This document shows positions 1,974 to 30,004 of a stretch of DNA of 46,074 nucleotides, piece by piece; within the stretch, counting starts at the first letter, position 1, and each line of letters starts with the position of its first letter. Location of the stretch: IMG/VR virus record IMGVR_UViG_3300025154_000158, positions 1 through 46,074 of that record; one strand, given 5' to 3'. A program made the translations under genes and the position numbers. This stretch comes from a virus. A model generated the notes under the pieces. That model was given only the letters and a program-made list of their open reading frames with translations. It did no database searches and was not told the DNA's origin.

Positions 1974-4097
1974 TCATTTCGTTGCCTTGGCTTTCTTTTC
2001 CGCTTTGATGTCTTTGCACAGTTGGATGATTCGTCCAACTTCTTCTTCCACATTCTCGTCTGTAAGTCCTGCAAGCCAATCCTCCTGTGTGATGTCCAAA
2101 TCCGTGAAGTCTATCTCACTCACACTTGCCCAATCTGCTCCAAGTTCAAGCTCGGCTTTCAATGGGACACGTAGCTTGTAAGCGTTCTCCATCAGGCTCT
2201 TGACACGGAACACTTCACGGATACCCTTGGCAGTCTTCGGCACTGATATGTCAAGCTCATCATGCACAGTCAAATGCCATGACAAAGTATCAAGGACACC
2301 GGACTTGTACACATCGACCATCGCTTTCTTCATGATGTCAGCGGCACTGCCTTGTATGAGTCTGTTCATCATGATGTACGTCTTGTCTCGATCTATGAGC
2401 CTTGAACGCCGACCAGCAAGTGTCCTGATGTATCCTCTTGACTTTGCAACGTCACCAACGCTGTTCATGGTCATCTTCACATATGGAGCGTTCTCATGGT
2501 ATACGGACAGCATCGCTTCCGCATAGTCCTTCGCCCAACCAAACAGTCTTGACATCTTTTTTCGTCCCATGCCATACATACAACCGAAGTTCATATTCTT
2601 TGCAGAGCTTCTTCCGAGTCCTGTGAGGTTCATGATATATTGGTGGTAGTCTGTGTGCGGGTCATTGTTGTACGTGTCCACGAGCTCCCTACTTCCTGTG
2701 CCACTCGCATAGTGCGCAAGACATCGGTACTCGACCTGTGAGTAATCGAGCTTCACCCACCAACAATTCGGCAAAGGTTTGAACGGCTCACGACACAGCT
2801 TGCCCCAATACTTGTCACGTCCAGTGGATGGAATTTGTTGTAGATTTGGATTGCTCATGCTGAAACGTCCAGAGCGTGTGCCATAGTCATCGGTCTTCAT
2901 CGTGTGTATTGTCGGGTGGATTCTGCCATCAGGACACATGGTCTTCTTCAACGAGCCTTGCAAGAACGTGCCAATCATCTTGTTGGCTTTGCGTATGAAC
3001 AGTATGTCCTTGAGCATCTTGTTCATTTCAACATCTTCATCGTCACCAAAGTTCTTATCAATCGCTTCAAAGAAGTCCTTTCCTATTGTCGGTCTGCACG
3101 TTCCTAGAGCCTTGTGCCGCCCACCAGTTATGTCAAGAAGAGTATCCGACATCGTGCCTTCCTTGATGCACTCCATGATATCTTGAGCTTCCTCGTAGGA
3201 TACAATTTCCTCGACTTCCTTGCCACGGTTATTTGTATACGTGAATTTGTACGGATGCTGGATACCAAGCCTGTCAAACAATTCCTTGAGTTGCTTAGGG
3301 CTGTTCAGGTTTATCTTGCCATGCTCACGTTCGAACGCAATCTCGCACTCTTCCTTTCTACATGTGGCAAGGTACGAGTTTACATCACGCACTGATGCAT
3401 CGACAGGCGTTCCAGTCATCTGCATGTGGAGCTTGGCACGCAATAGGTCTGTCTCCATTTTGAACAATGGAATCAAGTCCTGTTCCTCCATGAGCTTCCA
3501 CTGGATATCAAAGATTGCAAGCGGCTCTCGTACATCATCGAGTGCATATTTGTATACAAGGAAGTATGGCATTTTCCACAGCCATTTCCGTGCATCACCA
3601 GTCCAGCCGTTCTGTGCACAATACTCATCAATCTCAGTCTTGAATTTTCCCTTACCGAGATACTTATGCGCTTGGAAGTCCAAGCTGTACTGCCCCTGAT
3701 TCTCGTCCAATAACGGCTCTGCAACCTGTATGTCATACAGGTCTCCGTTGACCTTCAGACACAAGCCCTTGCCACGCCATGCGAACTTAGCCGTATCGCC
3801 TTTCCAGTTCTCCAACCAATCCACATCATACGTGATGTTCGCTCCGAGCTTCGGCATGGGCATTGCAAGCACGTAGCGCAAGTATTCAACGTTCTGCTCT
3901 CGTTCTTTCGCCGTGCAGTCATTGTGCCCAATGTTGTAGTATTCTGCGAAGCCAGCATCATCTGCAATTGCCACGCCAAGAATATAGCCATCATTGCGGT
4001 ACACGCCTGGCCCTAAGTCATCGGAAATCCCTGGGTCATACGTTTCTATGTCCACACAGAGTATCTTCGATTTGCTTACGTCTTTGTATTTAGCCAT
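1974..4097 (-). CDS. polA-like: Family A DNA polymerase with 3'-5' proofreading domain
   Basis: A 707-residue replicative polymerase. The N-terminal proofreading exonuclease shows Exo I (DIETYD, residues 16-21), Exo II (NITYD, near 88) and Exo III (YALDD). The polymerase palm and fingers show motif A DYSQVEYR near 449, motif B (RSSAK...FG..YG) near 495 and motif C HDELD near 610. Length and order match phage PolA enzymes lacking the 5' nuclease domain. It starts 8 bp inside the end of the upstream zinc-finger gene, so the two are translationally coupled. It is the main replicase of the phage together with the primase and helicases encoded upstream. Confidence 0.95.
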   Translation of the reverse strand: MAKYKDVSKSKILCVDIETYDPGISDDLGPGVYRNDGYILGVAIADDAGFAEYYNIGHNDCTAKEREQNVEYLRYVLAMPMPKLGANITYDVDWLENWKGDTAKFAWRGKGLCLKVNGDLYDIQVAEPLLDENQGQYSLDFQAHKYLGKGKFKTEIDEYCAQNGWTGDARKWLWKMPYFLVYKYALDDVREPLAIFDIQWKLMEEQDLIPLFKMETDLLRAKLHMQMTGTPVDASVRDVNSYLATCRKEECEIAFEREHGKINLNSPKQLKELFDRLGIQHPYKFTYTNNRGKEVEEIVSYEEAQDIMECIKEGTMSDTLLDITGGRHKALGTCRPTIGKDFFEAIDKNFGDDEDVEMNKMLKDILFIRKANKMIGTFLQGSLKKTMCPDGRIHPTIHTMKTDDYGTRSGRFSMSNPNLQQIPSTGRDKYWGKLCREPFKPLPNCWWVKLDYSQVEYRCLAHYASGTGSRELVDTYNNDPHTDYHQYIMNLTGLGRSSAKNMNFGCMYGMGRKKMSRLFGWAKDYAEAMLSVYHENAPYVKMTMNSVGDVAKSRGYIRTLAGRRSRLIDRDKTYIMMNRLIQGSAADIMKKAMVDVYKSGVLDTLSWHLTVHDELDISVPKTAKGIREVFRVKSLMENAYKLRVPLKAELELGADWASVSEIDFTDLDITQEDWLAGLTDENVEEEVGRIIQLCKDIKAEKKAKATK

Positions 4098-4482
4098 TCT
4101 TCTTGTCCCTCAGTGCGTTGCGTAAGCTCGCCGCTTCGATGTAGCATTTGTGGCTACAGTATCTCTGCAAGCCGTGCGCCGATTCAAACTCAGCACCACA
4201 ATGCAAACACTTGCGTACTGTTGGCTCGATTCTGGTGTAGTAGATACCACCTGCTTTTGCAAGCTCGTAGCATGTGTGTGAACAGAATCTCTTGTTGCTG
4301 ATGCTTGTGCTGAACGTCACGCCACACTGCTCACACACATGGTCTTCAATCGGTCTTTTCGTGCGTTGCTTGTAATTCTTAAACACAATGTCCCTGCATT
4401 TTTCTGAGCAGTACTTCTGATTGTTTCTGTAAGGCGTGAACACTTTGCCGCACAGTCCACACTTCCTTCTGATGTCTTCCAT
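4090..4482 (-). CDS. Protein with three tandem zinc-knuckle repeats
   Basis: A 130-residue protein made of three repeats of about 40 residues, each with C-x2-C, then an aromatic/basic stretch, then (Y/F)CS-x-xC-type pairs (CGLC...CSEKC; CEQC...CSHTC; CLHC...CSHKC). This is a treble-clef or zinc-ribbon array likely to bind nucleic acid. GGAGG lies 4 bases before the ATG. It is the first gene downstream of the promoter at 4557-4585 and overlaps the DNA polymerase start, so it may be a polymerase-associated or regulatory factor. Function is otherwise unknown. Confidence 0.8.
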   Translation of the reverse strand: MEDIRRKCGLCGKVFTPYRNNQKYCSEKCRDIVFKNYKQRTKRPIEDHVCEQCGVTFSTSISNKRFCSHTCYELAKAGGIYYTRIEPTVRKCLHCGAEFESAHGLQRYCSHKCYIEAASLRNALRDKKNG

Positions 4483-4556
4483 GATTCCTCCGAAACTGAC
4501 CTTTTTCAGTCATGCCAGATTATTGATTGTCGAACTAAGTAGCTATGGGTGGCATA
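4483..4556 (-). promoter_or_regulatory. Conserved leader downstream of the 4.5-kb promoter
   Basis: Read on the minus strand, this leader holds CCACC, 19 further bases, the block AATCAATAATCTGGCATG and then TGAAAAAGGTCA, before the GGAGG and ATG of the zinc-finger gene. The same blocks with identical spacing occur after the plus-strand promoter at 27806-27834. ACTGA and TCAGT around AAAAGG can form a small hairpin followed by TTT. Confidence 0.6.
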
Positions 4557-4585
4557 CTTATATGTCCTGACTACAGCCACTACAA
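4557..4585 (-). promoter_or_regulatory. Promoter TTGTAG-N17-TATAAG for the polymerase operon
   Basis: On the minus strand, TTGTAG (4580-4585) and TATAAG (4557-4562) are 17 bp apart. The spacer contains CTGTAGTCAGGACA, closely matching the spacer of the promoter at 27806-27834. AATCAATGATT overlaps and extends upstream of the -35 box (4585-4595). It lies directly upstream of the zinc-finger and polymerase genes. Confidence 0.6.
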
Positions 4586-4604
4586 ATCATTGATTCGATA
4601 ATGA

Positions 4605-5088: not shown

Positions 5089-6535
5089 ACACAATCTCCT
5101 CCTGATAAGTTATCTTCGGTCGCTGAAATTCAGCGAAGCTCTCTACGTCCATATAGTTATCATAGCCATAATTTGAATTGCTATGCACAATATGCAGTTC
5201 CTTCTTGGCTCGTGTGCAAGCGACATACAAACATCTAAGCTCCGAATCCTCGTGCTTTAGATAGTTGTCACGTACGTTCTTGGTCACGTCAAGCATGACG
5301 ACCACTTTGTCTGCCTCGCCACCCTTCACACCATGTATGGTGTTTATCATGAGCCGCCTGTCATACACATTCGGTCTGTGTGCAATCAAGTCTCTATAAT
5401 AGTTTGCATCATCAATATCAAGATTGAATCGTTTGTACCAAGGCTCGGCGCTGCCCATGTCATTGCGTAGAAAATGTGCTGTCACGAGTCTGTCTACCTC
5501 ACTCTTATAGCTTCCTGTCTTACGCATCTGCTCATATGCATTGATTGCCCTGATGACTTTTTCATCAACAGAATGTTCTGTTTTGTCAACATAAGCAAAG
5601 CCTCTTTTCCGTAGCATTTCCCTGTACTGCTTGAGATACAGATTGTTGCGTGACAGGAAGTAATAAGATGACGTTGCATCAATCTCAACGTCTTCAATGC
5701 TGTTGTGGAAGTATACCAAGCCACCCGACATGTTTGGAGCGAACTTCTTTTCCACACGTTGACTCATCATGTCAGTTATACGTGTCGAGAAGTTCAGGAT
5801 GTTTGAGGGCATACGATTGCTCTTCTCAAGCACCACTTTATTGCCATCAAGATTCAAGAAGTGCTCAACGTCTGCACCGTTCCACTCATATATTGCTTGG
5901 TCATCATCACCTGCGATGTACACATGGTCACACTCACCGAACGCAATCTCACACATATTCCACTGCAACGTGGTCAAGTCCTGAGCCTCGTCAATGATTG
6001 CAATCTTCACTGGCACTGGCTGTCCAGATTCAACAAAGAATGAAATCATGTCGGTGAAATCAGCATACCCATGGCGTGCCTTGTACGCATCATAGCTCTT
6101 CGCCACGACTTCAAATGAACGCATGTTGATGTCAAGCGCACAGCTCTCAGCCGCTTTTGGATTGTTCTTGCGTAGGAAGTAATAGAACAGATACTTATCA
6201 TCATCACTGTTGAAATCCTCAGTGTAGTATCCTGTGAAGTTCATGTTCATGAGGTCTGAGAATTGTTTGTACTGCTTGCGACCCATAATATCGTCACGTG
6301 CAAGTTGAGCCTGTGCATATGCTATCGAGTGCAGTGTTCTAAAATAAGGAAACTCCTCACTTGCATATCCAAATCTCTCCATCGCACGTGTGCGACCTTC
6401 ATAAGCACCCTTCTTGGTGAACGACACGAAAGCTATCTCTGATGGTTTGTAGTCCTCAAGAAGTTTTTCGAGAAGGTTCAATAGATACCAAGTCTTGCCA
6501 CAACCTGGCCCTCCGTATATGATTGTCTGTTTCAA
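5081..6535 (-). CDS. UvrD/Rep-like superfamily 1 DNA helicase
   Basis: A 484-residue SF1A helicase with motif I GGPGCGKT (residues 8-15), motif Ia around FVSFTKKGA, motif II IDEAQD near 181, motif III GDDDQAIYEWNGAD near 207, a TIHGVKGGEAD motif V, and motif VI with CTRAKKEL near 442. It is shorter than PcrA/UvrD (about 700 residues), in line with compact phage helicases of the Dda type. The start is a TTG that overlaps the TGA of the primase gene, with GGAG 8 bases upstream inside the primase coding end. Likely role: unwinding at the fork or recombination-dependent replication. Confidence 0.9.
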   Translation of the reverse strand: MKQTIIYGGPGCGKTWYLLNLLEKLLEDYKPSEIAFVSFTKKGAYEGRTRAMERFGYASEEFPYFRTLHSIAYAQAQLARDDIMGRKQYKQFSDLMNMNFTGYYTEDFNSDDDKYLFYYFLRKNNPKAAESCALDINMRSFEVVAKSYDAYKARHGYADFTDMISFFVESGQPVPVKIAIIDEAQDLTTLQWNMCEIAFGECDHVYIAGDDDQAIYEWNGADVEHFLNLDGNKVVLEKSNRMPSNILNFSTRITDMMSQRVEKKFAPNMSGGLVYFHNSIEDVEIDATSSYYFLSRNNLYLKQYREMLRKRGFAYVDKTEHSVDEKVIRAINAYEQMRKTGSYKSEVDRLVTAHFLRNDMGSAEPWYKRFNLDIDDANYYRDLIAHRPNVYDRRLMINTIHGVKGGEADKVVVMLDVTKNVRDNYLKHEDSELRCLYVACTRAKKELHIVHSNSNYGYDNYMDVESFAEFQRPKITYQEEIVYE

Positions 6536-20852: not shown

Positions 20853-20911
20853 CCGAACCATGAGACCACGGATAATCGATGTGATAAGTCACTCATACGA
20901 GCAGACTTTAT

Positions 20912-21004
20912 GTGGACGGTAGGACTTGAACCTACATCTCTGTTGCTTCCGAGTGTAACAGCACTCTCCGCTGGCCAGTATGTTGCCAGTTACACCACGT
21001 CCAC
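20912..21004 (-). tRNA. tRNA-like element, anticodon unassigned (93 nt)
   Basis: On the minus strand the ends pair as a perfect 7-bp acceptor stem (GTGGACG with CGTCCAC). Next to the 3' arm is a perfect T-arm, GTAGG-TTCAAGT-CCTAC, and after the 5' arm a D-like arm GTGT...ACAT with GG in the loop. The middle does not fold normally: CTGTT pairs with AACAG around a 12-nt loop, and about 17 extra bases lie before it. No CCA is encoded. It may be an unusual type II tRNA, a decayed tRNA or a tRNA mimic. Confidence 0.5.
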
Positions 21005-23685: not shown

Positions 23686-23759
23686 TTGTTTTTCTTCCTT
23701 GTTCAATACCATATTCTTTGAAGCGGTCAACGACCACTTTTTTCTCTGATTACAATTAT

Positions 23760-23788
23760 ATACTAGCACCTATGTACCATATTGTCAA
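23760..23788 (-). promoter_or_regulatory. Sigma-70 promoter TTGACA-N17-TAGTAT with extended -10
   Basis: On the minus strand a perfect TTGACA (23783-23788), 17 bp spacer ending in TGC, and TAGTAT (23760-23765). It lies about 75 bp upstream of the ATG at 23685. The TGC before the -10 box is shared with the 12.37-kb promoter. Confidence 0.8.
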
Positions 23789-23973
23789 TACTGAATTTCA
23801 ATTATTTTATATGCTGGACACAGGGTGCAGATGCTGTACGTCTATTCTTGACAGAATGCTGGAATGTGTCAGGAATAGACAACCATCGGAACGTGCTGTA
23901 CAATTATCTAACTGGTGCATGCAATGCTTGGAACGTGATGCACTGCATAGTGTGCAGGATGTGCGTTGCAGGA

Positions 23974-23993
23974 TGTGTGGTGCACGCCACACA
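23974..23993. repeat. Inverted repeat (7-bp stem)
   Basis: TGTGTGG (23974-23980) and CCACACA (23987-23993) around TGCACG, in non-coding DNA; one of several hairpins built on GTGTGG/CACGCC-type sequence. Confidence 0.5.
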
Positions 23994-24244
23994 GTAGTGT
24001 AAATTCTGATTTGTGTGCAATAAGATTCTTTTTTCTATTCACGATGAGTGAACGATGCACACCGCACGCCACGTTGTCAAAATAGGCTGGCATTTTGAAC
24101 GTGACACTCCCTATATAGGGCTCGGAAAAGCTTGAAAAGACCTTATCCAATCATTGATGTAAATGTAGTCAATATATAGATTTAAATCATTGATTTTAAC
24201 TTGGCATGTGTTAACTAATTGGTGATATACTGAAAGGACACAAA

Positions 24245-24408
24245 AGTCACACCGTGTCACACTTTTGGTCTCGTAAGTCTATATAGTGCAATGAGTTGCG
24301 AGCGTGTGACAGATGTGACAACTGTGACAGGGGTTCAAAATTTAGGTACGCTTTACTTATAAGACTTGAAAAATGACCCCCCATGTCACATTTGGTGCAC
24401 TTGTCACA
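24245..24408. repeat. Iteron-like TGTGACA array
   Basis: TGTGACA occurs three times in direct order at 24305, 24314 and 24323 (9-bp period). Its complement TGTCACA occurs at 24255, 24384 and 24402 (the last two 18 bp apart), with a one-base variant at 24245. Within this array CAAAAGT and ACTTTTG (24241-24247, 24261-24267) form a further inverted repeat. Regular spacing near one helical turn suggests binding sites for a replication initiator or regulator. Confidence 0.65.
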
Positions 24409-24719
24409 CGGCGTGTATCTCTTGTCGCCATATACATTTACCTCGTCAACTTTATTCCCATCGAACAGTTGTACATTTCATTTAAATACCGTGTTCTCAA
24501 GTACCACTCTACTAGTTTCTTTACAATACCAAACGCTTGAATATTTGTGCAGTTTAACTTCACTTTCTATATGCTTGTATTAAAGAAAAATAGCCAAACC
24601 CCTCCCTTATAGAAATGAACGTGGCGTGCGTTGTGCATTGTGTATCCTGCATCACATGATGTTTGTCATGCTTAGTAGGCTGTGTGTCGTGCATCACACG
24701 CCATTTGATAGTTGTCTGG

Positions 24720-24745
24720 TGGCGTGCACTGTGTGCCACACGCCA
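24720..24745. repeat. Inverted repeat TGGCGTG/CACGCCA
   Basis: TGGCGTG (24720-24726) and CACGCCA (24739-24745), 12-nt loop, immediately downstream (minus strand) of the 123-residue gene; T-poor terminator or binding site. Confidence 0.5.
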
Positions 24746-24751
24746 TTACTA

Positions 24752-25123
24752 CTAGGATATTGTCACAGAAACAGTTCCATCACCTAGTATTAATTGTCGG
24801 GTGGTGAGCGACACTTGACACCTGTCATAGTCCATCATCACGTTAAGTGATAGTCTCCCGATGATATGCACTATGAGCAATGAGTCGTCAATGAGCACAC
24901 TGTACTTGTCGGCTTGATAATTGTCAACCGTTCCGTCACGTCTTTTGACTTTGATTGACACATGGCGTGTGTCGGTAAACGTGTGGCGTGTATAGGTGAA
25001 CCCCTTGGGTTCGCCATCGCTTACAACGTATGGGAATCGTTTGTACACCTTGCCGTGTTTGTACTCGGCTTCGTTTACAAGAAAGTGCTCTGCAATCGTG
25101 TGTAGTGTGCTGTCATTACTCAT
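24752..25123 (-). CDS. Hypothetical early protein
   Basis: A 123-residue, beta-rich soluble protein without recognised motifs. GGAGG lies 9 bases before the ATG at 25123, inside the end of the preceding gene (8-bp overlap). It is the last gene of the small early cluster 24752-27205, whose members are short and Thr/Asn/Ile rich compared with the replication genes. Confidence 0.6.
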   Translation of the reverse strand: MSNDSTLHTIAEHFLVNEAEYKHGKVYKRFPYVVSDGEPKGFTYTRHTFTDTRHVSIKVKRRDGTVDNYQADKYSVLIDDSLLIVHIIGRLSLNVMMDYDRCQVSLTTRQLILGDGTVSVTIS

Positions 25124-25565
25124 TCCAATCAACCTCCATTTCAAAAGAGTAGTCCTTTCCAAGGCATTGTGAGAGTGCGCCATATCCGAATCCTAAACCG
25201 CTGTGATAGTTTGTTGGTAGGTCACAAACTAGTGGTGTCGTGCCATGATAGAGAATGTTGTTGCTACGTGTGAATCGTTCCATCTGGTGGATAGGTTCAA
25301 GCACGTCAACGATGTCATTCAATCGCTTGATAGTGGTTGGCGAGCACCACCCGCCATTGGTGATAGTGATTGCGTTGTTGCCATGTGACGACCACGTTAC
25401 GGTGCACAGCACAGTGTCATACATGGTGATAGTGATTACATTGTCGTACACCGTCTTTCCATTGTATTCGTGTGACGGTGTCGTGTGTTGCACGTGCATG
25501 TACGGATAGCGTGCACGCAATGCCTTAGCGTTGCTTAGGATAGTGTTGAATTGTGATTGTGTCAT
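25116..25565 (-). CDS. Small early phage protein with GGW..TT.KRLN motif
   Basis: A 149-residue protein. Its centre has beta strands with VTWSSHGNNAITITNGGW followed by SPTTIKRLNDI, a pattern resembling unnamed phage proteins with GGW-x-T-x-TTK-x-RIN. A start region like SQFNTILSNAKALRARYP also fits that type. Function unknown. Its ATG overlaps the stop of the preceding gene (TAATG), so the two are coupled. Confidence 0.6.
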   Translation of the reverse strand: MTQSQFNTILSNAKALRARYPYMHVQHTTPSHEYNGKTVYDNVITITMYDTVLCTVTWSSHGNNAITITNGGWCSPTTIKRLNDIVDVLEPIHQMERFTRSNNILYHGTTPLVCDLPTNYHSGLGFGYGALSQCLGKDYSFEMEVDWNE

Positions 25566-25897
25566 TATAAACCTGCCTTGTGTTCGATGTTGATAGTGCT
25601 GATAGTGAACGTGTCATGATTCTTTCCAGTGTAGCGATATTCAGCGTGTAGCGTGCCAATAGTAGGTGTCAAGTAGTGATACTTCAATGACCAAAGGTGA
25701 CGGAACATTGCTTGAATACTGGCGTTATCCGTGCGTATCTCTATCATGTTGGAATAGACTACGAGAGTAGCACTATCATTTTGCATGATATGATACTGTT
25801 GATACAGTCCAGTACTCTGATATTTTGTGATGAACTCTTTTAACACGTTCTGTTCAATCAGTGATTTGACCGCACTCTGTACTTGTTTCTTTGTCAT
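25565..25897 (-). CDS. Small early phage protein
   Basis: A 110-residue protein, helical start (residues 1-25), then several beta strands. The strand-helix order (LVVYSNMIEIRTDNASIQAM) parallels that of its neighbours at 25116 and 25912, so the three may be distant paralogues. AAAGAGAGG precedes the ATG. Not recognised. Confidence 0.55.
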   Translation of the reverse strand: MTKKQVQSAVKSLIEQNVLKEFITKYQSTGLYQQYHIMQNDSATLVVYSNMIEIRTDNASIQAMFRHLWSLKYHYLTPTIGTLHAEYRYTGKNHDTFTISTINIEHKAGL

Positions 25898-25911
25898 TTG
25901 CTTGCCTCTCT

Positions 25912-26256
25912 TTATAAATAGTAGCGGTTTGAATCCAGTACAATAGTGTACACGAGTCCATTAGTATGCTGAATAGTACCAGATTTGATAAGTTTGTCTT
26001 TCTCTAGTGTACGTCCACACCAACTAGTAAAGCCGTATTCCTGCATAAAGTTGTACACATGACGTTTAGTAGTGTTTGAATAGTCGTAGTGTGGAAATAG
26101 CGTTACCGTGCGCAATTTGCTATCAATTACTACGCACAAGGAATTGTACGAACGCAACGCTGTCAAGCTGTTAATCCGTGTTGTGGCGTGCGTGTTGTGG
26201 CGTTTGTTAGTCATTGTCTGCATACTGCTGATGGTACAGAATTCTTCTCTTGTCAT
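25912..26256 (-). CDS. Small early phage protein
   Basis: A 114-residue basic protein with strands VVIDSKLRTVTLFPHYDY then NTTKRHVYNFMQEYG, reminiscent of the GGW-TTK-RIN type seen next door. The leader AGAGAGGTACTATT before the ATG closely matches that of the 26360-26752 gene. Function unknown. Confidence 0.55.
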   Translation of the reverse strand: MTREEFCTISSMQTMTNKRHNTHATTRINSLTALRSYNSLCVVIDSKLRTVTLFPHYDYSNTTKRHVYNFMQEYGFTSWCGRTLEKDKLIKSGTIQHTNGLVYTIVLDSNRYYL

Positions 26257-26280
26257 AATAGTACCTCTCTGTTAGTGATT

Positions 26281-26297
26281 ATTCCATCAGATGGAAT
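26281..26297. repeat. Palindrome upstream of the 26.26-kb gene
   Basis: ATTCCAT-CAG-ATGGAAT, 7-bp arms, 25 bp upstream of the ATG at 26256; operator or leader hairpin. Confidence 0.45.
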
Positions 26298-26359
26298 TCT
26301 AAGCACGCCATGTAATGAGCATGGATTACAGCATGTTTACTGTTGCGTGCTTTATTGTG

Positions 26360-26752
26360 CTACATTACGAGTCTGATTGGTTCGTCCATCCAAGTAGTGT
26401 ATATCCAGATTCCAACGAACTTTTCATGATGCAAATAGGTGTCAAACTCGATTGATTTGATGCATTCCCATGGTATTGATGGAATAGCAAAGAGTGCGTG
26501 ACAGCGTGACGATGCCATTAATCCGTTGTCCGTGCACGTTACGGATATGCCATTACTGTACACTTGTTCGCCAAAGGTAGTCCATGAATTGGTTGGAATG
26601 TTAGTCATTCTAGGGAACATTTCACGCAATTCTAGGATAGCGTTGCCCAAATTGAACTTACTGTAGCAATCTGTTTCTGTGGTATCCGTCCATACCTTTA
26701 CTTTTCCGACAACAATGTTGTCCTGCTGATAGTCCGTTACATTCTTAAGCAT
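26360..26752 (-). CDS. Small early phage protein
   Basis: A 130-residue beta-rich protein with aromatic residues clustered in the C-terminal third (GIWIYTTWMDEPIRLVM end). AGAGAGGTACTACA precedes the ATG, nearly the same leader as at 26256. No family recognised. Confidence 0.55.
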   Translation of the reverse strand: MLKNVTDYQQDNIVVGKVKVWTDTTETDCYSKFNLGNAILELREMFPRMTNIPTNSWTTFGEQVYSNGISVTCTDNGLMASSRCHALFAIPSIPWECIKSIEFDTYLHHEKFVGIWIYTTWMDEPIRLVM

Positions 26753-26767
26753 TGTAGTACCTCTCTT

Positions 26768-26959
26768 TTAGTATGTTACGATAGTATTTGGTTGACCTTT
26801 GTAGTGGTCAATAATAGCCTGTCTTGTGCCGATAGCGTCTTCTTTGGAATCCGTGTAGTACGTTGCGCTTTCGTCCAGCTTCCCATTAACATACACCGTT
26901 ACCCTATATTCGTTCAATGCTGGATTGCGCTTTACTTTGCATATCCTCACATTATCCAT
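26768..26959 (-). CDS. Small early protein
   Basis: A 63-residue protein with a three-strand/one-helix look (EYRVTVYVNGKL, then DSKEDAIGTRQAIIDHY). AAGAGAGG precedes the ATG by 6-7 bases. A 7-bp hairpin (26975-26991) lies just upstream of the ribosome site. Not recognised. Confidence 0.55.
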   Translation of the reverse strand: MDNVRICKVKRNPALNEYRVTVYVNGKLDESATYYTDSKEDAIGTRQAIIDHYKGQPNTIVTY

Positions 26960-26974
26960 ATTTGTCCTCTCTTT

Positions 26975-27007
26975 ACATGCCTATGGCATGTTGTGCAGAC
27001 TGCGCAA
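26975..27007. promoter_or_regulatory. Tandem hairpins upstream of the 63-residue gene
   Basis: ACATGCC-TAT-GGCATGT (26975-26991) is a perfect 7-bp stem with a 3-nt loop. The overlapping TTGTGC/GCGCAA (26991-26996, 27002-27007) forms a second stem, so the two compete over a few bases. They lie between two genes on the minus strand and could control expression or processing. Confidence 0.5.
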
Positions 27008-27025
27008 CAGTGATAACCTACCTAC

Positions 27026-27205
27026 CTACCAATCAATTCCTATACCAGACTTTTCAAATTCTTCGTTTAAATCAATAACTTCGGGCTCTTGCTTTTCAGC
27101 ACTATCAAAAGCTATATCAATAAGCATATTCATAATAAGTTTGTCTATAGCTCTTGAGAAGTTTTCAAATGCTACTTTATTGGCGCAATCCACACAACAC
27201 GCCAT
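27026..27205 (-). CDS. Very small acidic protein with CC..C cluster
   Basis: A 59-residue frame from ATG 27205 to TAG 27026. It starts with three cysteines (residues 3, 4 and 7), continues as a helix with Phe/Leu/Ile spacing (FENFSRAIDKLIMNML) and ends acidic. Composition looks like a real protein, and it fills the space between the early promoter and the next gene. No good Shine-Dalgarno is visible, so confidence is moderate. Confidence 0.5.
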   Translation of the reverse strand: MACCVDCANKVAFENFSRAIDKLIMNMLIDIAFDSAEKQEPEVIDLNEEFEKSGIGIDW

Positions 27206-27254
27206 TATGTGTTGTGTTTCTAACTATGCATATTCACTGTTGTTAGGTGAATAA

Positions 27255-27273
27255 ATCCTGTATTCTAGGATTG
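27255..27273. repeat. Hairpin AATCCT/AGGATT
   Basis: AATCCT (27255-27260) and AGGATT (27268-27273) around a 7-nt loop in the leader of the early transcript; possible attenuator. Confidence 0.4.
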
Positions 27274-27482
27274 TAACGTATGCTTATAGCATTTGTTACT
27301 GTTCGTTTGTCGATTGCCCCACCCTATTACTTGCGCCTGTCACATGCGGTGTATTTCCGGTTTCGGGGAAACCCTTTCAATTCAGTCCAACAGCCTTGGT
27401 TTGCGTGTTGTCTGTAACGGTGTGTGTCGCACGGCCTTGGATGTTTTGCCTGCATCCGTCACCGCCTGTCGTCTGGTATTGT

Positions 27483-27491
27483 CTAACCCAT
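27483..27491 (-). CDS. Two-codon minigene (Met-Gly-stop)
   Basis: ATG GGT TAG on the minus strand, preceded 8 bases upstream by GAGGAGG and about 20 bases downstream of the expected start of transcription from a near-consensus promoter. Everything needed for strong initiation is present, yet the frame stops after two codons. It may be a regulatory minigene, a leader peptide or a gene inactivated by a frameshift (a shifted frame stays open for about 35 codons). Confidence 0.45.
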   Translation of the reverse strand: MG

Positions 27492-27517
27492 GGCTATCGC
27501 CTCCTCTATCTGAATAT

Positions 27518-27546
27518 AGTATACTCTATCTCACTTCAGATGTCAA
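27518..27546 (-). promoter_or_regulatory. Strong early promoter TTGACA-N17-TATACT
   Basis: On the minus strand a perfect TTGACA (27541-27546), 17 bp spacer, and TATACT (27518-27523). It faces the early gene cluster 24752-27205. A 14-bp palindrome (27556-27569) lies 9 bp upstream of the -35 box. Confidence 0.88.
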
Positions 27547-27555
27547 TAGTAATTA

Positions 27556-27569
27556 TTGAAATATTTCAA
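27556..27569. promoter_or_regulatory. 14-bp perfect palindrome upstream of early promoter
   Basis: TTGAAATATTTCAA is its own reverse complement and sits immediately upstream of the early -35 box, a usual place for an activator or repressor dimer. Confidence 0.5.
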
Positions 27570-27687
27570 ATATTTTTATAAAACGACCTTGACAAACGTG
27601 AACACAGGCGCAGGGCCTCGTTGCCGTGCGTCAATTATTTTTTATTTTTTATATAATATAGTATAGCGTATACCACTTATAGCTGTC

Positions 27688-27757
27688 GGGTGGCGCACGC
27701 CATTTGCTGACCTTATCATAACACAATGGGTGTCGCACGCCATTTGCTGACCTTATC
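27688..27757. repeat. 30-bp direct repeat, 40-bp period
   Basis: The units 27688-27717 and 27728-27757 differ at one base (G or T at the sixth position) and contain CGCACGCCATTTGCTGACC. They lie beside an AT-rich run (about 27626-27665). Shorter related CACGCCATTTG motifs occur at 24695 and 24737. Possible initiator or regulator binding sites. Confidence 0.75.
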
Positions 27758-27805
27758 CAAACATTGATTGAACAGCACCCAACGCTCATTATCTTCATCA
27801 ATGCT

Positions 27806-27834
27806 TTGTAAAGACTGTAGTTTGGATGTATAAC
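27806..27834 (+). promoter_or_regulatory. Promoter TTGTAA-N17-TATAAC with conserved leader
   Basis: TTGTAA (27806-27811), 17 bp, TATAAC (27829-27834). Boxes and spacer (GACTGTAGTTTGGATG) closely match the minus-strand promoter at 4557-4585. It precedes the late operon, upstream of a second promoter at 27972. Confidence 0.6.
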
Positions 27835-27905
27835 TACACCACCGAGCCTGAGTTAAAGCTCCAATCATTGATTTGGCATGTTGAGGAAAGGTCATGCCAG
27901 CTTTT
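27835..27905 (+). ncRNA. Short leader RNA element ending in a terminator-like hairpin
   Basis: Downstream of the promoter come CCACC, a GAGC/GCTC stem, the block AATCATTGATTTGGCATG and then TGAGGAAAGGTCA. TGGCATG (27874-27880) and CATGCCA (27893-27899) form a stem with a 12-nt loop followed by TTTT at 27902-27905. The product would be a short RNA of about 65 nt, or a leader controlled by antitermination. Block spacing is identical to the 4.5-kb leader. Confidence 0.5.
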
Positions 27906-27971
27906 GATGATTGTCACCACAAAAGATAGCCGTTATCACGTACATATTTCGCATCTGTGTCAGAATCGGTA

Positions 27972-28000
27972 TTGACTTATACATGCTTGTGTCGTACACT
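27972..28000 (+). promoter_or_regulatory. Late-operon promoter TTGACT-N17-TACACT
   Basis: TTGACT (27972-27977), 17 bp spacer, TACACT (27995-28000), then GAGGTGG at 28007-28013 and the first late gene at 28021. Confidence 0.8.
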
Positions 28001-28020
28001 GTAGATGAGGTGGAATACCC

Positions 28021-28380
28021 ATGCGAGACCTAGCCGAGACCCGACAAATCATAATCAACACGTACCAGAGGACACACGATTATGAGATGTCCCTTCGGAT
28101 TGTCGGCATCAATGACAAATCGGAGCGTGTGATAATTGAATCAGACGGTTTGTTTTGGGCAACGATAACTCGAATCGAAGCTGAGTTCTGTGCATCCTTC
28201 ACTGAGACACTGCAAGAGTTGATGTATCACGGAAAGAACGAGAATGTCAGGCTTCAAGCGGCTGTGAAGTTGGGAGAGATTTGGCATCGAGATAAGTTCA
28301 GTGCACAGAAGAAGGATGAGGACGAACACACTGTCAACCTGCATCTCTATCTGCCCGATAACGGACGTACAGCGAAGTAA
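28021..28380 (+). CDS. terS-like: Probable terminase small subunit
   Basis: A 119-residue protein: N-terminal helices (about 1-30), a beta/turn centre and a helical C-terminal half (ETLQELMYHGKNENVRLQAAVKLG) then a charged tail. Size, position directly before the large terminase and at the start of the late operon fit a small terminase, which recognises the packaging site. No clear HTH motif can be proven by eye. GAGGTGG lies 7 bases before the ATG. Confidence 0.65.
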   Translation: MRDLAETRQIIINTYQRTHDYEMSLRIVGINDKSERVIIESDGLFWATITRIEAEFCASFTETLQELMYHGKNENVRLQAAVKLGEIWHRDKFSAQKKDEDEHTVNLHLYLPDNGRTAK

Positions 28381-28432
28381 ACGTAGCAGTGGTGGGTGCA
28401 TCACCGTTTTGATAATTGTACACGAGGAAGTG

Positions 28433-28449
28433 CGGGCGTTGCCCGTTTT
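28433..28449 (+). terminator. Weak terminator/attenuator between terS and terL
   Basis: CGGGC-GTT-GCCCG (28433-28445) followed by TTTT (28446-28449). The stem is short, so it may only attenuate transcription into the terminase gene. The 172-bp gap around it holds no convincing gene. Confidence 0.5.
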
Positions 28450-28552
28450 GTAGGCTGGCTTGGAAGTTGGTAGAATGAAGATTCATCCACCATGGTGTGG
28501 AAGGAGTTCGTGGGACGCTAAGGCGCACCATGCTGAGGATGGAGCGTGACGT

Positions 28553-30004
28553 ATGCCGCAGAGGATAGCAGATGTAGAGCAGAGCATGGCAAAGGTGAAG
28601 AGTATAAAGCCGAACCCTGGGCCACAAGAGCAGTTCTTGGCTACTAATGCAGACATAGCTATATTCGGAGGTGCTGCTGGAGGTGGGAAATCATACAGCC
28701 TGCTCATGGAATCATTGAGGTATGTCGGGGTGCGTGGATATGAGTGCGCGATATTCAGACGGGAAGCCACACAGATAACCTCTGGTGGTGGACTGTGGGA
28801 CACGGCGCACATCTTGTATCCAGCCTTTGGTGGAGAACCGAGGACTACGCCACGGCACTTCTGGACATTTCCTGCTGGCTCGAAGATTGCGTTTGCGCAC
28901 CTACAACACGACAAGAGCGTGAAAGCGTGGGATGGTGCACAGCTCACATTGGTTGGCTTTGATGAATTGCAACACTTCACGGAGGCACAGTTCTTTTACA
29001 TGCTGTCGAGGAACCGTTCAACGTGCGGCGTGCGGTCTTACATGCGTGCCACGTGCAACCCCGACCCTGATTCGTTCTTGGTGAAGTTGTTGGCATGGTG
29101 GATTGACGAGGAAGGCTATCCGATTCCTGAACGTTCCGGTGTCGTGCGTTGGTTCATAAGACAGAACGGCGAGCTTATTTGGTTTAATTCGTATGACGAG
29201 TGCTATGCGCTGTATCATAAGGAGATAGACTCAGGTGATGCAAGTCCTAAGAGCTTTACGTTCATTCGTTCAACGCTGGAGGACAATCCTGCTCTGATGG
29301 AGCTTGACAAAGGCTACAAGGGCAACTTGAATTCGATGTTTGAATATGAACGGCTGAGATTGCTGAAAGGAAACTGGTTTGCACGACCGCAAGCTGGCGA
29401 GATGTTCAAGACTGGCTACTGGAAATACATAGACCGTGATGACATGCCCCGCATTGACAAGATGAAGGGCATTGTGCGTTATTGGGATAGGGCTGGAACA
29501 TTGCCGAGTGACAAGAATCCTGACCCTGACTGGACTGCTGGTTGCTACATGATGCTGAGTCCTGATGATAATTTGTACATATATGACATGCGGCATGCGA
29601 GATTGGAGCCACATGATGTGGAAATGCTTGTGAAGGACACTGCGGAGCAGGACACACGTGAAGTTCCTATCTGGCTCGAACGTGACCCTGGGCAAGCTGG
29701 CAAGGCTGAAGTTGCTTATTACATCAGGAATCTAATGGGGTATGACCTGCACCAACGTCAGAAAAGGACGTCAAAGTTGTCTTATTGGAGGCCGTTTGCA
29801 TCACAGGTGAAGGCTGGCAACGTGTATTTGGTCAGAGCACCGTGGAATAGAACATTTGTTGATGAGCTGGCGTCTGTGACCGATGGTTCACAAACAACAC
29901 ATGATGACCAAGCTGATGCCGCATCGGGAGCTTTCATGGTTTTGGCAAAGATGATGAAAGATGACATCAGTGATAGCAAGGCAACGAAGAACATGGGGGT
30001 ATGA
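28553..30004 (+). CDS. terL: Terminase large subunit (packaging ATPase-nuclease)
   Basis: A 483-residue protein with an N-terminal ATPase: FGGAAGGGKS Walker A (38-47), LVGFDELQ Walker B (near 134-142), CNPD coupling motif (near 168). The C-terminal RNase H-like nuclease has RYWDRAG (near 313) and DDQADAA (near 458), giving the metal-binding acidic residues. Full usual length. It cuts and pumps DNA into the prohead with the portal and small subunit. The start at 28553 follows GGAG; an internal ATG at 28586 just before the conserved part is an alternative. Confidence 0.95.
   Translation: MPQRIADVEQSMAKVKSIKPNPGPQEQFLATNADIAIFGGAAGGGKSYSLLMESLRYVGVRGYECAIFRREATQITSGGGLWDTAHILYPAFGGEPRTTPRHFWTFPAGSKIAFAHLQHDKSVKAWDGAQLTLVGFDELQHFTEAQFFYMLSRNRSTCGVRSYMRATCNPDPDSFLVKLLAWWIDEEGYPIPERSGVVRWFIRQNGELIWFNSYDECYALYHKEIDSGDASPKSFTFIRSTLEDNPALMELDKGYKGNLNSMFEYERLRLLKGNWFARPQAGEMFKTGYWKYIDRDDMPRIDKMKGIVRYWDRAGTLPSDKNPDPDWTAGCYMMLSPDDNLYIYDMRHARLEPHDVEMLVKDTAEQDTREVPIWLERDPGQAGKAEVAYYIRNLMGYDLHQRQKRTSKLSYWRPFASQVKAGNVYLVRAPWNRTFVDELASVTDGSQTTHDDQADAASGAFMVLAKMMKDDISDSKATKNMGV

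Follow-up and report, generated by a model that had tools for sequence, protein, structure and literature searches.

Two promoter-like elements, A and B, each standing directly upstream of a block of genes, form what we judge from their comparison to be a real, lineage-specific pair of regulatory elements in this phage. The two copies keep a fixed internal spacing, are conserved block by block and hold their position in a relative, and their motifs recur. Our preferred reading, held with moderate confidence, is that A is a copy of a phage-specific promoter module that would be used by the host RNA polymerase, probably together with a DNA-binding protein of the phage or the host. Throughout, the window is the whole stretch of DNA analysed (46,074 nt), and G003 is its 52-kb relative IMGVR_UViG_3300025010_000015, about 91-93% identical to the window across most of the genome and less so in places. 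The initial annotation had proposed that A gives a short terminated RNA, acting as a small regulatory RNA or as an attenuator. A conserved element with a predicted promoter and a leader is indeed present upstream of the late block. The terminated RNA now appears doubtful, and a simpler explanation at the level of DNA would replace the attenuator; for the rest, this is ordinary phage promoter anatomy.

Table 1. Elements A and B and the features around them, with positions in the window.
Feature	Position	Strand	Remarks
Element A, 98-nt core	27797-27894	+	66/98 ungapped identity to B; 98/98 in G003
Order of parts in element A			dyad, -35, CTGTAGT, -10 dyad, spacer, dyad 2, TGGCATG, AAAGGTCA
Element B	4497-4601	-	TTATC-N2-ATCAATGATT, TTGTAG-N17-TATAAG, second dyad, TGGCATG
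Further dyad-like site upstream of A, CCAAACATTGATTG	27757-27770	+	in the window and near-identical contigs; absent in G003
Compound operator-like motif TTATC-N3-ATCAATGCT	27789-27805	+	directly upstream of the -35
Predicted promoter TTGTAA-N17-TATAAC	27806-27834	+	-35 at 27806-27811, 17-nt spacer, -10 at 27829-27834; B has TTGTAG-N17-TATAAG; identical in G003
Inverted repeat GGAYRTATAASTAYRCC	27824-27840	+	spans the -10 and the expected start
Second dyad AATCATTGATT, then TGGCATG, in the leader	27863-27880	+	block conserved between A and B, 16/19
Proposed terminator TGGCATG/CATGCCA + TTTT	27874-27905	+	doubtful; arms 27874-27880 and 27893-27899, TTTT 27902-27905
Leader ORF of 11 codons, MPAFDDCHHKR	27894-27929	+	GAGG 7 nt upstream; possible, speculative
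Second sigma-70-like promoter TTGACT-N17-TACACT	27972-28000	+	scan 9/12; both hexamers identical in G003
First late-block ORF, 119 aa	28021-28380	+	terminase-small-subunit candidate by position only
130-aa protein directly after B	4090-4482	-	three CxxC...C...C zinc-ribbon repeats
Locus C, non-coding	24143-24206	+	TTATC-CA-ATCATTGATG, TATATAGA stretch, second dyad, TGGCATG

Genomic setting and relatives

The window is a virus record with the gene content of a tailed phage. Genes running leftward from about 27 kb include helicases, an AEP-type primase and a family A DNA polymerase, and those running rightward from 28 kb include the large terminase, the portal and the tape measure; element A is sited in the non-coding DNA that separates these two blocks. 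Upstream of A, the window and G003 are unrelated across much of the stretch. Downstream of the A hairpin, 5 of the 119 positions before the first late gene (27902-28020) differ, as do 26% of those in the next intergenic DNA at 28381-28552.

The promoter pattern of the elements matched seven stretches in six viral contigs, all from the lineage of the window's phage. Seven of the 22 stretches matched by the 3' block pattern come from the same lineage and the remaining 15 were taken as chance, as was the single one of eight dyad-pattern matches that fell outside it (L077, within a long ORF). On these matches the element appears only in the window's lineage within the viral collection. Three places in Pseudobutyrivibrio, from the genome collection, are mutually very similar and look like one conserved host locus, and were rejected as copies of A or B. 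A terminase scan of the genome contigs returned no relative, the annotated phage collection had no DNA match to positions 23700-28700 of the window, and the other terminase and portal relatives, at 47% identity or less, are too distant for use on the element. Element A is also carried by contigs G001, G002 and G004 and element B by L031 and L032; all are near-identical to the window and thus add no independent evidence.

Several other features of these records are worth recording. About 65 extra bases in G001 (6239-6302) and G002 are absent from the window at 27177-27184, and contig G004 starts exactly at that site, which marks a population variant or an assembly break. A 15-bp tandem repeat (CGTGCGAACCATTGC) makes up both ends of the G003 contig (L023 1-120 and the end of L025), which suggests a possibly circular molecule that was broken within the repeat array. 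A tRNA is matched by Rfam on the minus strand at 20911-21004 (47 bits over 94 bases) and is not called by ARAGORN; a long variable arm or an insertion may be the cause, or the tRNA may be degenerate. A 105-aa protein encoded at 1641-1958 on the minus strand matches Cas_VVA1548 (PF09652, E 1.1e-13), a putative CRISPR-associated family, here in a phage.

Two copies conserved in blocks

Aligned from +27797 with the minus strand of B at 4594-4497, A shows 66 ungapped matches in 98 positions, whereas the best of 30 dinucleotide shuffles reaches 47; the description of A in the initial annotation as a plus-strand copy of an element is therefore sound. Neither the window nor G003 holds a third full copy, and both copies are kept in G003, A in full and B at 92 of 98 positions. 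The matches between A and B are gathered in blocks, comprising 21 of 25 positions over the dyad, the -35 and CTGTAGT, 12 of 15 from the -10 to CCACC, the second dyad with TGGCATG (Table 1), and all eight of AAAGGTCA. The spacers between the blocks have kept their lengths and match at 3 of 7, 6 of 18 and 0 of 6 positions. Short blocks at fixed distances amid diverged spacers fit binding of a protein to DNA better than a folded RNA.

We also considered A and B as protein-coding on either strand. The 32 differences between them fall 7, 14 and 11 to the three codon positions and are thus not gathered in any one of them. Four of the six reading frames contain stops in both copies, and the two that are open in A have stops in B. 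Coding is accordingly unlikely.

Descent could account for the conservation, since there are only two copies, in one lineage that has one more-diverged member. Nor is the 107-nt stretch of identity at A unusual for window and G003, a mosaic pair: of their 82 identical runs measuring 60 nt or more, 30 are as long. The leader of A parallels that of B up to AAAGGTCA, after which B continues into a ribosome site and a gene, and A into the 11-codon ORF only. This would fit a history in which the promoter and leader of the zinc-ribbon gene were copied beside the terminase genes as a by-product of duplication, the short ORF and the hairpin being functionless remnants. We consider such an origin distinctly improbable, since A is identical in G003 at every position of its core while nearby non-coding DNA has diverged.

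A weak predicted promoter with an operator-like motif

The promoter that the initial annotation placed in A is present in the letters and is conserved in both B and G003, but its likeness to the sigma-70 consensus is weak taken alone. With 9 of 12 positions matching and no T at the end of the -10, it goes unlisted in a sigma-70 scan; what supports it instead is that the twin copy has conserved it.

The compound motif upstream of the -35, written as TT[AG]TC-N1-3-A[TA]CA[AT]TG, occurs five times in the window (at A, B and C, at 27753 and once within the first late gene) against a mean of 0.37 in 150 shuffles, none of which has five. Because this pattern was composed after the window sites had been seen, the count in G003 is the fairer test, although the sites there are orthologous: three occur, one each at A, B and C only, against a mean of 0.41, and 1 of 150 shuffles reaches three. 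The exact form AATCAnTGATT is found four times in the window, three of them at A, B and C and one intragenic, and never in 12 shuffles. Dyads with up to two mismatches show no excess in the window (30 found, 40 expected). At both predicted promoters, then, an operator-like motif stands at a fixed distance from conserved hexamers, as in phage regulated promoters, and in each genome the motif itself is present at three intergenic loci.

Locus C is a partial relative of A and B, having the dyad and TGGCATG in common with them. Its first dyad and TATATAGA are kept in G003; its second dyad and TGGCATG are not. Close to it, TGTGACA/TGTCACA is repeated at 24240-24420 in non-coding DNA that is largely conserved in G003, a possible replication origin or operator array.

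The consensus for IHF is WATCARNNNNTTR, and both AATCAATGATTTG of B and the reverse complement of the second dyad of C fit it. A and B might then be IHF/HU-type bending sites, or sites for packaging or replication, and not promoters; A also adjoins the terminase genes. Several sites, however, mismatch the consensus, the conserved letters extend beyond it, and B lies far from the terminase genes, which together leave this explanation very improbable.

In each genome the inverted repeat GGAYRTATAASTAYRCC is confined to A and B, which differ from one another in both members of two of its pairs. Two-sided changes of this kind arise in 0.9% of null trials when the positions of the substitutions are free and in 17% when they are fixed, and the repeat may be a DNA dyad or chance. 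Since it lies over the -10, it could act as RNA only if transcription starts further upstream.

A small hairpin with two compensated pairs, GGAYRUAUAASUAYRCC, is one reason to ask whether A and B are instead two copies of a cis-acting RNA, a put-like antiterminator or another leader, serving two operons. A leader element of about 70-100 nt does head two gene blocks, as putL and putR do, and the B stretch of the window folds well, with a z-score of -3.79. Yet the compensated hairpin overlaps the -10, so that its transcription would require a start further upstream, the consensus energy is only -7.5 kcal/mol, and the B fold drops to a z-score of -1.79 in G003. The main leader hairpin is not common to A and B (no pair is changed on both sides, and the 3' arm is a gap in B), and a shared A/B fold was rejected as the main stems are not in common. 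Neither A nor B has a match in Rfam 15 at the gathering score. We regard a cis-acting RNA as an improbable account of the pair.

The leader hairpin and the proposed short RNA

Intrinsic terminators consist of a stable, G+C-rich, short-loop hairpin with a U run at once after it. The initial annotation took the hairpin and TTTT about 65 nt past the expected start for such a terminator; the letters are there, but as a terminator they read poorly. The hairpin has eight pairs, one of them G-U, around a 12-nt loop, at about -9.8 kcal/mol. Counts of hairpins with a T-rich tail and eight pairs or more are 10 on the plus strand and 9 on the minus strand, compared with 4-10 per strand in six mononucleotide shuffles. 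The leader has a folding z-score of -1.78, which does not rise above chance, and its most stable fold places the T run inside a longer hairpin at 27862-27913. G003 has the same hairpin and leader as far as 27901, and T27902C then gives it the tail CTTT. In the comparison with B, the 3' arm falls in the alignment gap and five of nine outer pairs are counted as broken.

This evidence bears on whether transcription from promoter A stops at the hairpin to give a 60-70 nt RNA, with regulated read-through by an attenuator or by Q-like antitermination before the late genes. In its favour, a hairpin with four T does stand at that distance and is unchanged with the leader in G003 up to 27901, and the conserved CTGTAGT..GGA block between the -35 and the -10 has a position at which phage lambda might have its Q binding element. 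The long loop of a weak hairpin, the four T of which G003 loses one, and the lack of the 3' arm in B make the short RNA doubtful; in addition, hairpin-plus-T sites occur at chance number, the alternative pairing described below is lost in G003, and no Q protein of PF06530 or PF03589 was found in the two genomes. Overall we hold the short RNA to be unlikely.

The clearest terminator-like hairpin of the phage lies on the minus strand at 1262-1237, with 11 pairs (AAGAGCCCCC/GGGGGCTCTT), seven of them G-C, and a T-rich tail; it is likely the terminator that ends the leftward block. It looks unlike the hairpin of A, which we count in favour of A being a promoter module. As to the possible 11-codon ORF of the leader, G003 retains its start and stop and differs within it by two changes, one synonymous and the other altering an amino acid.

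An upstream strand able to pair with the leader had also been proposed, with the consequence that the base of the terminator would be contested. The pairing does exist, CCAAACATTGATTG forming 13 pairs with 27862-27876 at -11.7 kcal/mol, but it lies within the range of random stretches. For a 65-nt upstream stretch the duplex with the leader comes to -15.5 kcal/mol, the 5% level for random stretches of the window being -17.0, and the upstream stretch of G003 forms a different duplex with the leader at -17.3 kcal/mol, close to the 5% level of the window null. The pairing arises because the near-palindromic AATCAwTGATT is complementary to every further copy of itself, and would be expected whenever copies of such a site lie close together. 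The contested base did not survive scrutiny: its partner precedes the predicted start, would be in the RNA only if transcription begins further upstream, and is absent in G003. An attenuator working by alternative pairing, which would need a conserved competing helix inside the transcript, was rejected on the same two grounds. The neighbouring stretch at 27688-27763 holds two 36-nt direct repeats, 92% alike and containing CGCACGCCATTTGCTGACCTTATC; CACGCCA motifs related to them recur at 24052-24760.

Downstream genes and a proposed mode of action

The first late-block ORF directly precedes the large terminase gene (28553-30004) and has no convincing family match. On the other side, the zinc-ribbon protein has weak HNH/NinG matches, and its gene is followed by that of the family A DNA polymerase (4097-1974). 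The zinc-ribbon protein is a candidate DNA-binding protein, and by its position only a candidate for the regulator. Searches for known regulators found members of the Q families PF06530 and PF03589 in neither of the two genomes, no PF06323 in either (the search control was silent), and no Ogr/Delta protein in either of the two records, both of which may be incomplete. None of the proteins scanned belonged clearly to a regulator family, and the small ones gave a single regulator-like hit, a Cox match below the cut-off.

In the promoter module that we favour, a protein would bind TTRTC-N2/3-ATCAWTGAT just upstream of the weak -35, its site centred at about -40 from the expected start. Class II activators occupy this position. 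The same protein might also bind the second dyad within the leader, 67 bp away. Copy B would drive the zinc-ribbon gene and the DNA polymerase (4482-1974, minus strand), and copy A the late block from 28021, in tandem with the more ordinary sigma-70-like promoter at 27972, so that replication and packaging genes would be raised together. The hairpin of A would not be a dedicated terminator, and transcription would be expected to run through it. For both elements we infer promoter activity, a start site, an activator or repressor, timing and read-through.

A bolder version, which we think improbable, would have the two-copy element couple the polymerase and packaging operons through one regulator, perhaps the zinc-ribbon protein, that reads TTRTC-N2/3-ATCAWTGAT together with the -10 inverted repeat, the leader also affecting elongation. 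If the promoter-module reading is right, a single type of promoter links replication with packaging in this phage, and two copies with matched motifs offer a direct handle for finding the regulator.

Comparison with known systems

The late promoter of lambda is followed by a short leader and a terminator before the late genes. A resembles this layout in having a predicted promoter, a short leader and a possible terminator before late genes, and in the conserved letters between the -35 and the -10. It differs in that the hairpin is weak, a second copy stands before a polymerase gene, and Q proteins of PF06530 or PF03589 were not found in the two genomes. The DNA element on which Q loads lies next to a promoter-proximal pause (PMC7171158). 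A might be under Q-type late control, with the same low probability as the short RNA.

The put RNAs of HK022 are about 70 nt long (PMC9378689), and there too two related elements head two operons. They have two stem-loops in common, whereas A and B have no leader stems in common; with no two stem-loops conserved in both copies, identity with put RNA was rejected. IsrK of Salmonella Gifsy-1 is a short phage RNA whose end is in part read through to give a longer transcript (PMC4825925), and this would be the model for A if the short-RNA reading were right.

The late promoters of P2 are a similar phage-specific type of promoter, with an Ogr/Delta activator for which neither of our two genomes gave a match. 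The middle promoters of T4 carry a MotA box (a/t)(a/t)(a/t)TGCTTtA at 12 +/- 1 bp from the -10 (PMC2988021). A and B do not fit this type of middle promoter: TGCTTTG of A ends 20 bp before the -10, away from the MotA spacing, and B has TGATTTG. The dyad of A and B ends 23 bp upstream of the -10, where A has ATGCTTT at the wrong distance and B ATGATTT. Their likeness to T4 middle promoters would lie in the architecture: a box specific to the phage takes the place of the -35 or overlaps it, at promoters that serve replication genes, together with the host RNA polymerase and a host-type -10.
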